Below are positions 23,995 to 29,186 of a stretch of 29,186 bases of DNA, piece by piece. Positions within the stretch are counted from its first letter, which is position 1; every line of letters starts with the position of its first letter. The stretch is from a virus, in the IMG/VR virus record IMGVR_UViG_3300048927_000324, positions 1 through 29,186 of that record; one strand, given 5' to 3'. The notes below the pieces were generated by a model. That model was not told the origin of the DNA, did no database searches, and worked only from the letters and a program-made list of their open reading frames with translations. The position numbers and the translations under genes were made by a program.

Positions 23995-24429
23995 TTGGAC
24001 ACAACAATTAAAACACTTATCGCCGTTGGCGGTGCAATCGCATCATTCTTGTTTGGAGGCTGGTCTAGCTTGTTATCTATCCTATTGGCATTTGTTGTTG
24101 TTGATTACCTCACCGGCTTAACGGCTGCTGCTAAAGAGGGGACGCTTAGGAGCGATGTCGGGCTATGGGGCATCGCCAAAAAAGTAATGATTTTTGGAAT
24201 TGTCGCCGTTGCCCATTTGGTCGATACGATCCTCGGCGGTTCGCACCTATTTAGGGACATGGCAATATTCTTTTATCTCTCTAATGAGCTACTGTCGCTA
24301 ATCGAGAACGCCGGCCGGATCGGCGCACCTATTCCGCCGGGGCTGCAGCGGGCGGTTGAGGTGCTGAAAAGCAAGTCTGGAGGTGCTGACGATGATCGAA
24401 CACAAACGAGCCAGGATAAACAACAGTAA
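23995..24429 (+). CDS. Phage holin (toxin-secretion/lysis holin family)
   Basis: This 144-residue membrane protein should form the pore that releases the endolysin. Hydrophobic segments are TLIAVGGAIASFLFGGW, SILLAFVVVDYLTGLTAA and KVMIFGIVAVAHLVDTIL, with a fourth around MAIFFYLSNELLSLIENAG. The 'VDYLTGL..A...g.l.S..G..Gi.kK' signature is that of the Bacteriophage_holin_4 family. The start is TTG 23995 with AAGGAGG upstream. Its 3' end overlaps the endolysin gene by 38 bp. Confidence 0.92.
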   Translation: MDTTIKTLIAVGGAIASFLFGGWSSLLSILLAFVVVDYLTGLTAAAKEGTLRSDVGLWGIAKKVMIFGIVAVAHLVDTILGGSHLFRDMAIFFYLSNELLSLIENAGRIGAPIPPGLQRAVEVLKSKSGGADDDRTQTSQDKQQ

Positions 24430-25918
24430 AGTTGAGCAGGGGCCGCTGACATACACGCGATCAGGCCAGTACAGCAAAGGGGAGGGCTGGACGGATTATC
24501 GCCAGCTCGACATTCCAGGGGCAGCCATTGTCCGGACGGAGCTGGTCACAGCCAAGGGCAAAACAGTATCAAGCATTCTGGCAGATATGGTCAAAAAGTA
24601 CGGCGGTAGTTGGGTGTGTCTCAACGGCGCCTTTGTTGCGTCCGATGGATCGTTACTGGGCCTTACACACCGAGAAGGCAAGGCTATCTATCCTGATGTC
24701 AAAGGTAAGACTGAGCAGCGTCCTCACCTGTACCGCAAAGGCGGACGCTTTGGCATTGGTAGGCAGTCCAGCCCTACAGGACTTGATTGGGCAATCTCTG
24801 CTGTGCCTACGCTAGTACAAAGTGGCAACGCCATCCTTACGCCCATTACCGCAGAGCAAACGCCATCAGATGTACAAGCCACTAACCCGCGCATGATCGC
24901 AGGCATCAAGCCGGATGGCACACTGGGTATAATCGTTGTGGATGGGCGCGGCACTTACGACAAGGGCTTTACCAGCCGGGAGGCGGCGATCCTTTCCGCT
25001 CACCTTGGCTATACCAACGCGGTCAACCTGGACGGCGGTGGCAGCGCAACGCTGGCGACGAATAACGACCAACTCCGCAAACTGCTGGACATCGACAAGG
25101 CCAACGGCAACAAGCGTCTGTATCACGTTGCAGACATGGGAGCAGATCAACAGGAGCGTGTTGTCCATCATGCGCTTTGCATCCAAGTAGATCCGGCCAA
25201 GCTGCTGCCGGATTACATTGTGGACCATATCCCAGTCAGTACGCCTAATAACCGTCGTTCGGGGCGCACGCTTAAAGCCACGACCTTGACCATACACAAT
25301 ACCGGCAATCCAACCAGCACAGCTCACAATGAGCGCAATTGGCTGACTAACCCTACCAATAATGTTACCGCGAGCTATCACATTGTCATCGGGCCGGAGA
25401 CAACCGCAGCTGACAGCCGGCCTATCGCAATCGAGTGTTTGCCGCTTAATGAGGTTGGCTGGCACGCTGGAGACGGCACCAAGGCGGACGGTGGCAATAT
25501 GACGTCCATTGGCATTGAGATTTGCGAGAGTGGCAATTATGCGGCCACGCTTGAGTATGCAGTTCAGTTAGTCGCAGGAATGCTTATGGAGCGTGGCTGG
25601 AGTGTTGATCGATTGAGGCGTCATTGGGATTGGCCGTCATCCTCCGGATACCGCAAGATTTGCCCACGTTTGATGTATGATGGCGTGGAATGGACGGGCT
25701 GGGCAGAGTTTAAAGAGAGGGTGAAGAAAGCTATGGGATCAAAAAACGAAACGCCGCCGGCGCAGCCAAAAGATGATGTTACCGGCCATTGGGCGGAATC
25801 AGACATCAGGGCCGTTCAAGCAACCGGATTAATGTCCGGATTCCCTGATGGTTCATTCCGTCCGGATAAAGAAGTTACTCGTGCGGAGTTGGCGGTTATT
25901 TTATTGAGAAAGCAGTAA
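24392..25918 (+). CDS. Three-domain endolysin: phosphodiester-glycosidase-like, Amidase_2, SLH
   Basis: The product is 508 residues. Residues about 60-250 look like a phosphodiester glycosidase (NAGPA-type) domain: VCLNGAFVASDGS, NPRMIAGIKPDGTLGIIVVD, and the hallmark NLDGGGSAT (212-220). Residues about 285-435 form an N-acetylmuramoyl-L-alanine amidase with LTIHNTG (His302), GWHAGDG, SIGIEICESG, HWDW (His411) and CPR (Cys424) as likely zinc ligands. Residues about 460-508 are one SLH repeat (GHWAESDIRAVQATGLMSGF, PDGSFRPDKEVTRAELAVIL) for binding the host wall. The ATG at 24392 has GGAGG eight bases upstream; GTG 24383 is less likely. Lysis of the host envelope is its role; the first domain's substrate is unknown. 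Confidence 0.9.
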   Translation: MIEHKRARINNSKVEQGPLTYTRSGQYSKGEGWTDYRQLDIPGAAIVRTELVTAKGKTVSSILADMVKKYGGSWVCLNGAFVASDGSLLGLTHREGKAIYPDVKGKTEQRPHLYRKGGRFGIGRQSSPTGLDWAISAVPTLVQSGNAILTPITAEQTPSDVQATNPRMIAGIKPDGTLGIIVVDGRGTYDKGFTSREAAILSAHLGYTNAVNLDGGGSATLATNNDQLRKLLDIDKANGNKRLYHVADMGADQQERVVHHALCIQVDPAKLLPDYIVDHIPVSTPNNRRSGRTLKATTLTIHNTGNPTSTAHNERNWLTNPTNNVTASYHIVIGPETTAADSRPIAIECLPLNEVGWHAGDGTKADGGNMTSIGIEICESGNYAATLEYAVQLVAGMLMERGWSVDRLRRHWDWPSSSGYRKICPRLMYDGVEWTGWAEFKERVKKAMGSKNETPPAQPKDDVTGHWAESDIRAVQATGLMSGFPDGSFRPDKEVTRAELAVILLRKQ

Positions 25919-26076: not shown

Positions 26077-26973
26077 ATGATAACCAAATACGTCAAATTC
26101 GACTATTTCAAAGTAGTTTTTAGGCCTTTTGGAGCGCCTGAGTCTGTGCCAGATGACCCCTATGATTTAAGACCGCTGATTTATGATTTGAGCAAGAGGT
26201 CTCTTTCCGATAGAGTAGTTCCTTATAAGCAAGAAAAAGCTCGAATGGATTCTCATGGCTTTGATCCTAAAACGAACTTATGGGATGTTTATTTTTCCCG
26301 TCTTCGTGATTTTAATCTTCCATCTAGAGCTAAAGAAGATGGTCCTTCAGAGCCATTTGATTTAGATGATGATGAATACATTGGTGAAAATGTTTCAGTG
26401 CTGTATGATGAGGATTATCATATATTAATGGTTCAACGAAATCGCTATAGCTTGAGTCCCTCTGCCTTGGAAGAATATTTTAATCATGTTTCTGGTGATT
26501 CTACTAACGTTATTTGTTTTCGACCAATCTCAATTCCGGATCCAAAGACCAGAGCAAAAAATGCGCATTATATTAGGAAGATCCGAGTAAGATTTGCTAA
26601 TCTAGATAAAGTGAAGCTTGAAGGCAGGGGAACTTCATTAACAAAGTGGTTATCACTACTTGATGAGTATGAACCAGTCACAGGAGAAGTTATTATTTCG
26701 GTAGGACGTCAAAGAAAAGCCTCACTTGAAAATTTAAGCGGCTTTATTGATGAACTAGTCGAAAATAGGGATATTGTTTCAGGGGCAGAGGTTTTAATCA
26801 AGAAGAGTGATCTTGTTGATGCAGAAATTGTTGATTTGTTTGAAAATAACGCCTACGATGTTATCAGTTTCACGGTACCGCCGAGAACCGTATTAAATCA
26901 CGAAGCTGTTATTTATGAAATGGGAAATGTGTATATTAATAGAAGATCGGAAATAGTTGGTTATCTTAAATGA
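26077..26973 (+). CDS. Uncharacterised prophage-end protein, possible RexA-like exclusion factor
   Basis: The 298-residue soluble protein has no signal peptide or membrane segment. Visible segments are KFDYFKVVFRPFG, VSVLYDEDYHILMVQRNRYS, VICFRPISIPD, YIRKIRVRFANLDKV and EVIISVGRQRKASLENLSGF. I believe it belongs to an uncharacterised Firmicutes family (possibly DUF6731; from memory, unverified). By eye the order of strands and helices is similar to lambda RexA (about 279 residues), and the gene is followed by a four-helix membrane protein like RexB. The gene is clearly AT-richer than the lysis genes and lies behind an SOS-like box. A defence or exclusion role is inference. GGAGTGG precedes the ATG. 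Confidence 0.75.
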   Translation: MITKYVKFDYFKVVFRPFGAPESVPDDPYDLRPLIYDLSKRSLSDRVVPYKQEKARMDSHGFDPKTNLWDVYFSRLRDFNLPSRAKEDGPSEPFDLDDDEYIGENVSVLYDEDYHILMVQRNRYSLSPSALEEYFNHVSGDSTNVICFRPISIPDPKTRAKNAHYIRKIRVRFANLDKVKLEGRGTSLTKWLSLLDEYEPVTGEVIISVGRQRKASLENLSGFIDELVENRDIVSGAEVLIKKSDLVDAEIVDLFENNAYDVISFTVPPRTVLNHEAVIYEMGNVYINRRSEIVGYLK

Positions 26974-26985
26974 GAGGTGAAAGTG

Positions 26986-27528
26986 ATGGGGAGAGTTTGG
27001 GATAAGGTTTACCCTGTTATAGTTTCCTTTTTCATAACTGGGGTATTTCTATCATTTGGACTTGATTCAAAATTAGAAGGATTTGAAAAGGTCCTAGATG
27101 GAACCATCACTTTCGCTTCAATTGTTGTAGGTTTTCTTGCCGCACTTCTTGCTATAATACTGAGTATTTCAAAGTCTAAAGTTATGAAACATCTATATAA
27201 TTACATAGATGTAAATAAAGGTAAGAAAATTTTATTTAGCTTTTTCCAGCAAAGTATTGCATCAGGATTTGTGGTCGTTATTCTTTCAATTGCGATGTAC
27301 CTTGTGATTGAATTGAAAGATCAATACGCATATCATAAAGTCGCATTTTACTTATGGCTCTTTTTAAGTATCTTTTTTGTTGTAACAACTTACAGAATTA
27401 TTAATATACTTATGAAGGCATTGTTTATTGAGGCTGGTACCGCGAGTGAGAAAAACACTAATCAACCCAATCATATGAGTGAAGAATCAATTGATCAGTT
27501 CAAAAATGAAAGCATAAGAAAATCATAA
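26986..27528 (+). CDS. Four-helix membrane protein, possible RexB-like partner
   Basis: The product is 180 residues from ATG 26986, with GAGAGGTG seven bases upstream; GTG codons at 26977 and 26983 are alternatives. Four hydrophobic helices are YPVIVSFFITGVFLSFGL, ITFASIVVGFLAALLAIILS, SIASGFVVVILSIAMYLVIE and FYLWLFLSIFFVVTTYRI, followed by a polar tail of about 40 residues. It begins 12 bases after the upstream stop, so the two genes are an operon. The size and topology are close to lambda RexB (144 residues, four helices). A membrane-depolarising effector is a hypothesis only. No catalytic motif is seen. Confidence 0.8.
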   Translation: MGRVWDKVYPVIVSFFITGVFLSFGLDSKLEGFEKVLDGTITFASIVVGFLAALLAIILSISKSKVMKHLYNYIDVNKGKKILFSFFQQSIASGFVVVILSIAMYLVIELKDQYAYHKVAFYLWLFLSIFFVVTTYRIINILMKALFIEAGTASEKNTNQPNHMSEESIDQFKNESIRKS

Positions 27529-27548: not shown

Positions 27549-27583
27549 AGAGCCATCGGGAAAGCATCCCAGTGGCTCTTTTT
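27549..27583 (+). terminator. Rho-independent terminator of the two-gene cassette
   Basis: AGAGCCA (27549-27555) pairs with TGGCTCT (27573-27579), with an inner GGGA/TCCC pairing, and T residues follow. It ends the prophage-side transcription unit 20 bases after the membrane-protein stop. Confidence 0.9.
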
Positions 27584-27586
27584 AAT

Positions 27587-27604: not shown

Positions 27605-27708
27605 GGCAGGTCTATTTTTCAATGTTTTTATCAAATTAAGTACGACAATACTATACGGTTAAATCCCTTATAGATACTGCTATCAGCTCACATAAGACAG
27701 CATAATCG

Positions 27709-27859
27709 TATATGGGCGGCATGATGTGATGAAATCATTATCGAAGTAATTCGATGATGAGCGACCGCGCTTTAGCGGCAGATTTCATCGCCGATGGAGC
27801 AGAAAACGCTCCATGCGGTAATCTAGGCTGAAAAGCCTTGCCCCCATTTTGACCATATA
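27709..27859 (+). ncRNA. Structured RNA candidate, family not recognised
   Basis: Several perfect or near-perfect helices nest cleanly. A closing stem pairs ATGGG(C)GGCA at 27712-27721 with TGCCCCCAT at 27839-27847. GATGAAATC (27728-27736) pairs with GATTTCATC (27781-27789); inside it ATTATCGAA/TTCGATGAT closes a GTAA tetraloop and CCGC/GCGG closes a six-base loop. Next come CCGATGGAGC/GCTCCATgCGG with a seven-base loop, and AGGCT/AGCCT with a GAAA tetraloop. The two GNRA loops exist only on the plus strand. An alternative outer pairing, TATATGG (27709-27715) with CCATATA (27853-27859), is possible. No open frame spans the region. It is neither tRNA-like nor tmRNA-like. It may be prophage or host. 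Confidence 0.5.
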
Positions 27860-27869
27860 GAAATAAAAG

Positions 27870-27909
27870 AGGCTTCTCACTAGTTCAGATTGAACTTTGT
27901 GAGAAGCCT
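27870..27909. terminator. Bidirectional terminator hairpin
   Basis: AGGCTTCTCAC (27870-27880) pairs with GTGAGAAGCCT (27899-27909), with a perfect inner hairpin AGTTCA-GAT-TGAACT. A T-rich tract follows on the plus strand, and an A-rich tract precedes it (T-rich on the minus strand). It could end the structured RNA on the plus strand and the gene fragment on the minus strand. Confidence 0.8.
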
Positions 27910-27912
27910 GTT

Positions 27913-28045
27913 TTATTTAGCGTTGCGAAGTTCATCAAGCATTTGGTTAAATAGTGAACGATGCTTTCTGCCATTGGGCGATGCCCCTGTTCAGCAGGTA
28001 GTAGAATGTGCGTAAATAAGGAACTTCTAATCCTTCGAATAGGGC
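27913..28045 (-). pseudogene. Decayed minus-strand gene fragment
   Basis: Read on the minus strand, two neighbouring frames give protein-like text: ALFEGLEVPYLRTFYYLLNR in one, then ASPNGRKHRSLFNQMLDELR followed by NAK and TAA (27915-27913) in another. A single frameshift would join them. The stop lies directly before a terminator in the minus direction. There is no ribosome site or long frame. It looks like the 3' end of a broken gene, perhaps cut by prophage integration or by later decay. I do not recognise the family, and chance similarity to coding sequence is possible. Confidence 0.3.
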
Positions 28046-28104: not shown

Positions 28105-29186
28105 CTACCGATGAGTCATATGAGCTGGAGCCACTGCTTTTTCACTGCTTTTTTGAAAAAATAACTTAATTAACGGCGGAGTAATCAAGGTCGTCAAGAG
28201 AACGACCATGACGATTGCGGTATAATAGCTCGCTGGTAGCAAGCCTGCCGATAAACCTGCCGATGCAATAATAAGTGCCACTTCTCCTCGCGAAACCATG
28301 CCGGAGCCAATAGCCAGCGACTGTCTGGAACTGAAGCCGGTGAGCCGCGCTCCCAAGCCGCCGCCTGCCATCTTTGTAATAATGGCAACTATCGTCAAAA
28401 GCACAATAAACAATGCTTGGCTGCCAAGTCCCTCGAATGAGATATTAAGACCGATACTGACGAAAAAGACAGGAACAAACAAGGTGTAAGCGATAGGCTC
28501 TACCTTTTGCTCGATGACGGGCCTGAAGGTTGTGCGTGACAGCGCGAGTCCTGCCGCAAATGCGCCGATGATTCCGGCAACGCCCATATATTCCGCGAAA
28601 TAGGAGTAACCGAAGCAGAGCAACAAAGCACCGCTCATTACACCTTCGCTCACTTTTATTTTGGACATGAGTTTTATCAAAAATGGAACGGCAAAGCTTA
28701 CTGCAATGATGACGATAAAAAAGATTGTTTTTTTCAACAACATAACAGGCAGGGAGACGGCTTCAGCATCACCCAGCAAGCTCATCATAACGGCAAAAAG
28801 AACAACGACAACAACATCATCCACGACAGCCGCGCCCAAAATGGTTGTTCCCTCTCTGGAGCCAAGCTGGTTCATTTCTTTCAAGGATTGCACGGTGATG
28901 CTGACAGAGGTTGCGCATAGCAGCAGACCCATGAATAAAGCGTGAGGCTGGGGCAGTCCTAGCAGAAGAGAGAGGCTGTATCCTCCAAAAAAGGGCAAAA
29001 TGATGCCCCCTGCAGCAACCGCGACGGATGACATCCAATTTTTCCGAAGCTGGTCCATATCCGTCTCTAGCCCAGCAATAAACATGAGTAATAATACGCC
29101 AATTTCCGAAAAGTGTCCGATGAGCTCTCCAGGCTCGACCCATCCCAAGACGGCCGGTCCTAGCAGAATGCCTGCAAGCAGCTTGC
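28105..29186 (-). CDS. CPA2-family cation/proton antiporter, 5' end outside the window
   Basis: The visible 360 codons encode a polytopic membrane protein. Codons upstream of an in-frame TTG at 29148 continue as LLAGILLGPAVLGWVEPGEL, the classic N-terminal helix of KefB/NapA/GerN-type antiporters, so the true start lies beyond 29186. Other hallmarks are GVLLLMFIAGLETDMDQLRK, FMGLLLCATSVSITVQSL, ILGAAVVDDVVVVVLFAVMM (the paired Asp residues of the ion site), GAFAAGLALSR, FVPVFFVSIGLNISF and SRGEVALIIASAGLSAG. No C-terminal TrkA domain is present. It is oriented against the prophage and has its own terminator, so it is probably host chromosome. It would exchange Na+ or K+ for protons. Confidence 0.93.
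   Translation of the reverse strand, partial: KLLAGILLGPAVLGWVEPGELIGHFSEIGVLLLMFIAGLETDMDQLRKNWMSSVAVAAGGIILPFFGGYSLSLLLGLPQPHALFMGLLLCATSVSITVQSLKEMNQLGSREGTTILGAAVVDDVVVVVLFAVMMSLLGDAEAVSLPVMLLKKTIFFIVIIAVSFAVPFLIKLMSKIKVSEGVMSGALLLCFGYSYFAEYMGVAGIIGAFAAGLALSRTTFRPVIEQKVEPIAYTLFVPVFFVSIGLNISFEGLGSQALFIVLLTIVAIITKMAGGGLGARLTGFSSRQSLAIGSGMVSRGEVALIIASAGLSAGLLPASYYTAIVMVVLLTTLITPPLIKLFFQKSSEKAVAPAHMTHR

Follow-up and report, generated by a model that had tools for sequence, protein, structure and literature searches.

The window analysed here (29,186 bases, recorded as a virus in IMG/VR) covers a prophage and the adjoining part of its host chromosome. Terminase, portal, head, tail-sheath, tape-measure, holin, and endolysin genes are present from position 259. 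In the lysis protein encoded at 24383-25918, a phosphodiester glycosidase (NAGPA) is combined with an amidase and with an S-layer homology domain. The prophage ends with a DUF6731 gene and then a small membrane-protein-like gene (26077-27528); the same pair also terminates another IMG/VR provirus (L449, 4001-5457), and the small gene has a weak match to PADLOC PDC-M18B. A hairpin plus T-run at 27549-27584 on the plus strand resembles a terminator and would mark the end of the last prophage transcript. On the host side, a terminator-like hairpin of the groEL transcript is located at 27870-27915 (plus strand; 90% identical in the uninterrupted locus L385), and a partial Na+/H+ exchanger gene (Pfam PF00999) occupies 28105-29148 on the minus strand. 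No Na+/H+ exchanger was found behind groEL in the relatives, so the gene order downstream of groEL is not conserved.

Between these two terminator-like hairpins lie the last 18 bp of groEL (ATGGGCGGCATGATGTGA, encoding M-G-G-M-M-stop; 27712-27729, plus strand), and the bases preceding 27712 in the window are not groEL. We searched 396 Paenibacillaceae genomes with a pattern consisting of the groEL end and the first half of the structured element that follows it, and 18 of them gave matches. At 13 of the 18 loci, an open groEL frame (501 codons, all upstream sequence examined) reads into the stop codon and is followed by the element; at L386, L390, L394, L395, and L399, the groEL stop is preceded by an open frame of just 8 to 50 codons, and in the window by one of 5 codons. 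Two different junction positions at the groEL end were seen in Paenibacillaceae on comparing L386 and L395 with L390 and L394: two of these four loci have a common junction, with TTTGTCTC abutting ATGGGCGG, and in the other two the join lies some 47-50 codons farther upstream. L385, where groEL is intact, matches the downstream side of the window best; identity to L385 is 96% over window positions 27712-27761 and 90% over 27862-27950.

The same groEL end is found next to other phages. The sequence ATGGGCGGCATGATGTRAT, the last 18-19 bp of groEL, is present in 34 IMG/VR loci (L450-L483), and, by our reading, non-groEL sequence precedes it in about 23 of them. On contig 3300014070_000012 (L470, L467), one end carries an intact groEL and then an integrase-like frame, and the other end carries phage sequence, then the bare groEL core, and then a terminator. 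The staphylococcal island SeCISE48 also has an att site that overlaps the last 18 bp of groEL (PMC8125051), whereas the present case is a prophage in a Paenibacillaceae host, with its integrase lying outside the window. Since the groEL end is a bare copy at the right junction of this prophage, is intact in relatives, and has a core reused by other proviruses, 27712-27729 is the core of the right attachment site. As judged from these sequence comparisons, the last 18 bp of groEL are an attachment core in wide use by phages, and the window sequence after 27729 is the former groEL 3' UTR on the host side; an intact groEL is expected at the other end of this prophage.

The original prediction for this region was a compact multi-helix RNA in the gap between prophage and host, and a real conserved multi-helix fold is indeed present there. 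The folding energy of 27700-27865 is -62.5 kcal/mol as compared to -41.1 ± 3.6 kcal/mol for shuffled sequences (z -6.0), and the minus strand of the same segment has a z of -5.0; for the element core, z is -5.2 as RNA (27726-27824) and -4.0 as DNA (27724-27824). A complete copy of a dispersed structured repeat, belonging to its groEL subtype, spans 27726-27821 on the plus strand (covariance model R1, 90.5 bits, E 1.8e-17, with the window itself among the model's own sequences). Its architecture is a domain closed by helix P1, which holds a near-invariant core, with hairpin D after it. The 5' arm of P1 (27728-27736) overlaps the groEL stop codon and pairs with the 3' arm at 27781-27789, both arms being identified by covariation; the core, GATGAGCGACCGCG (27756-27769, with its end at 27759-27769), was recognized from alignments, and hairpin D (27790-27819, arms 27790-27800/27808-27819) from covariation in the family.

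The pairing inside P1 differs by subtype. Most copies have a hairpin like CCUC-UAUC-GAGG (P2; 5.84 versus 5.43 ± 0.08, permutation z 5.4), while the groEL subtype has hairpin B with a GTAA loop (27737-27758, arms 27737-27745/27750-27758), predicted from the fold and from changes among the groEL copies, together with hairpin P4, CCGC-GCTTTA-GCGG (27765-27778, arms 27765-27768/27775-27778), predicted from the fold and from comparison. P2 and hairpin B are mutually exclusive, and P2, B, and P4 suit different subtypes. A pseudoknot, ACCGC/GYGGT, was considered as well; it is compatible with the sequences, but the base of hairpin D accounts for the same conservation.

The nested helices expected from the single sequence, namely P1, hairpin B, P4, and D, all exist, while several other parts of the original prediction did not survive comparison. 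One arm of the proposed closing stem consists of groEL codons (GGGCGGC, 27714-27720), and its partner, GCCTTGCCCCC, was not seen in the relatives compared. The proposed switch helix, TATATGG/CCATATA, crosses the junction between phage and host (TAT from the phage, ATGG from groEL), so it is absent from the uninterrupted gene. The hairpin with the GAAA tetraloop (AGGCT-GAAA-AGCCT, 27825-27838, plus strand) lies outside the conserved element and is present in only some groEL neighbours. The reading of the GTAA loop as a GNRA tetraloop holds for most groEL copies, which have GTAA or GCAA, but not for the family at large, and tertiary docking found no support in the comparison of relatives. As for the suggestion that the structure is the host gene used as integration site, this came close: the att core is formed by the last 18 bp of groEL just upstream, and it overlaps the element only at its first bases.

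The first relatives of the element came from a blastn search of Paenibacillus cellulosilyticus replicons. A degenerate core pattern matched at least 70 of the 396 Paenibacillaceae genomes, with up to 30 copies per genome, and a reversed control pattern gave zero matches. In five rich genomes, the covariance model R1, built from 22 sequences, detected 42, 63, 68, 32, and 33 copies. When it was run on 250 genomes sampled from the class, 16 had matches; all 16 are 4.8 Mb or larger, some belong to the genus of G001, and the family is likely limited to Paenibacillales. A single-sequence DNA search of 75 genomes of G001's genus found no copy, but diverged copies in this genus were subsequently picked up with the covariance model, so the earlier negative result was a matter of sensitivity. 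Many copies are dispersed in the intergenic regions of each genome, and the ability to form hairpins is conserved across the family. The copies are single or joined in head-to-tail arrays, which are frequent, with about four bases common to the units at each boundary. Some of the tandem arrays (L258, 2457-2734; L371; L372) are formed by compact 79-bp units, with the long hairpin D in the last unit only. At L216 (710-789), a glycine riboswitch match is located directly behind one repeat copy.

The compensatory changes that a genuine structure should leave among homologs were found, with strong covariation in P1 and D. Among 43 matches, 87.1% of cells were paired, 189 cells were double-changed versus 64.0 ± 7.5 after shuffling, and the covariation score was 0.386 versus 0.134 ± 0.009 for shuffled alignments and at most 0.088 when the partners were slid; a second alignment with 63 distinct rows gave 0.293 versus 0.094 ± 0.006, both alignments (A3 and A4) having been fitted to the model and therefore being biased towards structure. 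Alignment A2, which was built without the model, gave a covariation of 0.192 versus 0.063 ± 0.009, and swapping the P1 arms between copies lowered the mean score from 12.1 to 11.3 ± 0.16. On these sequence comparisons, the closing helix P1 and hairpin D are strongly supported across the family.

Presence and absence of the element at orthologous sites were seen at three sites, which indicates that the element inserts. One of these is within a MITE with the ends GTTCAAAAAG and CTTTTTGAAC (L245, 2193-2480; L289; L290), a separate element that is common in Paenibacillus, occurs at 23 places in one P. cellulosilyticus replicon, and has the repeat as a passenger in some genomes. The MITE is found without the repeat in P. 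cellulosilyticus (L289, where TTTTGAT is directly followed by CACGAAG) and in P. urinalis (L290), and with it at L245, L242, and L253 (TTTTGAT, then AAGAAAACC to ATATCTAA, then CACGAAG); the insertion is precise, and target duplication is absent. At the hemW-lepA spacer, L008 has the element, G303 has a disrupted copy, and the six other aligned genomes have none; the start of the element is similar to the empty flank, which leaves the exact junction and any target duplication ambiguous there. At the third site, the element is present in G299 and absent in G303, with flanks that have diverged to 92-94% identity; the insertion boundary is therefore base-exact only at the MITE site. The type-2 subfamily owes its many copies at least in part to the MITE that carries it, and this MITE is a different element from the repeat. 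The two ends of the repeat, RTRAG... and ...GTGGTAA, do not form an inverted repeat.

We consider it probable that the element in the window is a host-derived copy from a new Paenibacillaceae family of small interspersed repeats, about 80-130 bp long, which are mobile but non-autonomous, and that the phage integrated into the groEL end later. One repeat copy would have landed directly after the groEL stop codon in the ancestor of a groEL clade and would then have been inherited. The phage, presumably using a tyrosine recombinase as in another provirus with this core, would have inserted at the final 18 bp of groEL, so that the prophage would now have at its right end the bare 18 bp, the repeat, and the groEL terminator. 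An enzyme provided in trans may recognise the hairpins and mobilise the repeat, most simply by acting on folded single-stranded DNA. Against the mobile-hairpin explanation stand the near-invariance of the inner core, which exceeds what a mere hairpin substrate would require, the lack of both Y1 transposase and TnpB in five rich genomes, an insertion boundary that is exact to the base at one of three sites, and the fitting of alignments A3 and A4 to the model. A bolder version, which we regard as speculative, is that the repeats represent a new mobile structured nucleic acid, that is, folded units that have a near-invariant core and bind a putative dedicated protein, spreading without terminal inverted repeats or target duplications and multiplying into head-to-tail arrays.

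The inner core and the strong covariation could also be explained if the family is a dispersed non-coding RNA that acts as RNA, either as an sRNA or bound to protein, with the core as a putative binding site and the spread as a secondary feature. The groEL copies are in line with such a function, as hairpin B shows one double change plus G.U intermediates among them, the GNRA loop is kept in most, and the window copy is in sense within a transcribed 3' UTR. However, the helices of the family contain 36 G.U pairs and 45 A.C mismatches (cells that are not independent of each other); since G.U is not above A.C, folding as DNA is supported as well as folding as RNA, and the plus strand, which the original prediction had taken as the RNA strand, is not favoured by the comparisons. 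According to approximate gene calls, the neighbouring genes run in the same direction as the element in some copies and in the opposite direction in others, which together with the lack of a G.U excess argues against a general cis-acting RNA and is compatible with DNA folding. An RNA function is therefore rather unlikely as the primary explanation.

A narrower possibility is that the element acts in cis in the groEL 3' UTR, where it would stabilise or process groEL mRNA. The element, whole or truncated, lies directly behind intact groEL in 13 other Paenibacillaceae genomes and appears to have been inherited behind groEL in 18 genomes; its 5' half is present at all 18 loci because the search pattern demanded it, and so this is no evidence of conservation. 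Thirteen complete copies of the element behind groEL show weak covariation (0.080 versus 0.057 ± 0.006), so some constraint is possible, and hairpin D pairs in 93.7% of cells among groEL copies with zero double changes. Against a role in groEL expression, the 3' half of the element was lost at 6 of the 18 groEL loci (L385, L387, L388, L391, L392, and L400), which means that the whole structure is not needed there, and most members of the family are found elsewhere in either orientation. Taken together, the element is probably not a groEL regulator, and the cis-acting reading has little probability.

Even less likely is a relic of an RNA-guided transposon system of the HEARO/IscB or TnpB type. 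The repeat is structured, has no terminal inverted repeats, and shows a precise insertion without target duplication; with single-strand transposons of the IS200/IS605 type and their derivatives it also shares hairpins near both ends. HEARO/IscB RNA is likewise a mobile-element RNA of similar size, but the element gave no match to the HEARO model even at E 10. Of the 16 genomes that hold the element, four have Y1 transposases and ten have TnpB-type proteins, but neither was found in the rich genomes G289, G299, G303, G371, and G363, none of the loci retrieved around Y1-transposase or TnpB genes contains a family copy, and the IS605-type elements of G216 have ends unrelated to those of the repeat. 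Y1 transposase and TnpB were accordingly rejected as general mobilisers, and the element is one copy of a dispersed host repeat family rather than a stranded guide-type RNA of this prophage. The last alternative, a phage-encoded RNA of this prophage, is suggested by the adjoining position but can be given practically no weight, since the element is located beyond the att core, on the host side, and follows groEL at uninterrupted loci, and no relatives were found in the phage collection. The element was found at none of the 34 IMG/VR loci with the same att core, some of which are on contigs that stop at the site, and so does not belong to the integration module; matches in a scan of viral contigs with a 14-base pattern looked like chance.

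No known class could be assigned to the element, as the original prediction had said; Rfam 15 scans, HEARO included, gave no matching entry, and a search for tRNA and tmRNA returned nothing. In the literature consulted, mostly outside subscription journals, we found no described Paenibacillus repeat of this kind. The bcr repeats of Bacillus cereus, from a related group, are described as dispersed, structured, and about the size of the element. Among other Gram-positive bacteria, the pneumococcal BOX, RUP, and SPRITE elements are small interspersed intergenic repeats that are predicted to fold when transcribed, BOX modules occur in tandem arrays, and terminal inverted repeats connect both BOX and RUP with IS elements (PMC3049150). 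The Paenibacillaceae repeat resembles them in size, intergenic location, and predicted folding, and resembles BOX in its arrays, whereas its sequence and host are different, neither terminal inverted repeats nor an IS partner was found, and its pairing is backed by extensive covariation.

Our results show that what stands out as an "orphan RNA" next to a prophage can be the displaced 3' UTR of a host gene. They also define a new repeat family of Paenibacillaceae that reaches tens of copies per genome, and provide a covariance model for it together with pairs of filled and empty sites.
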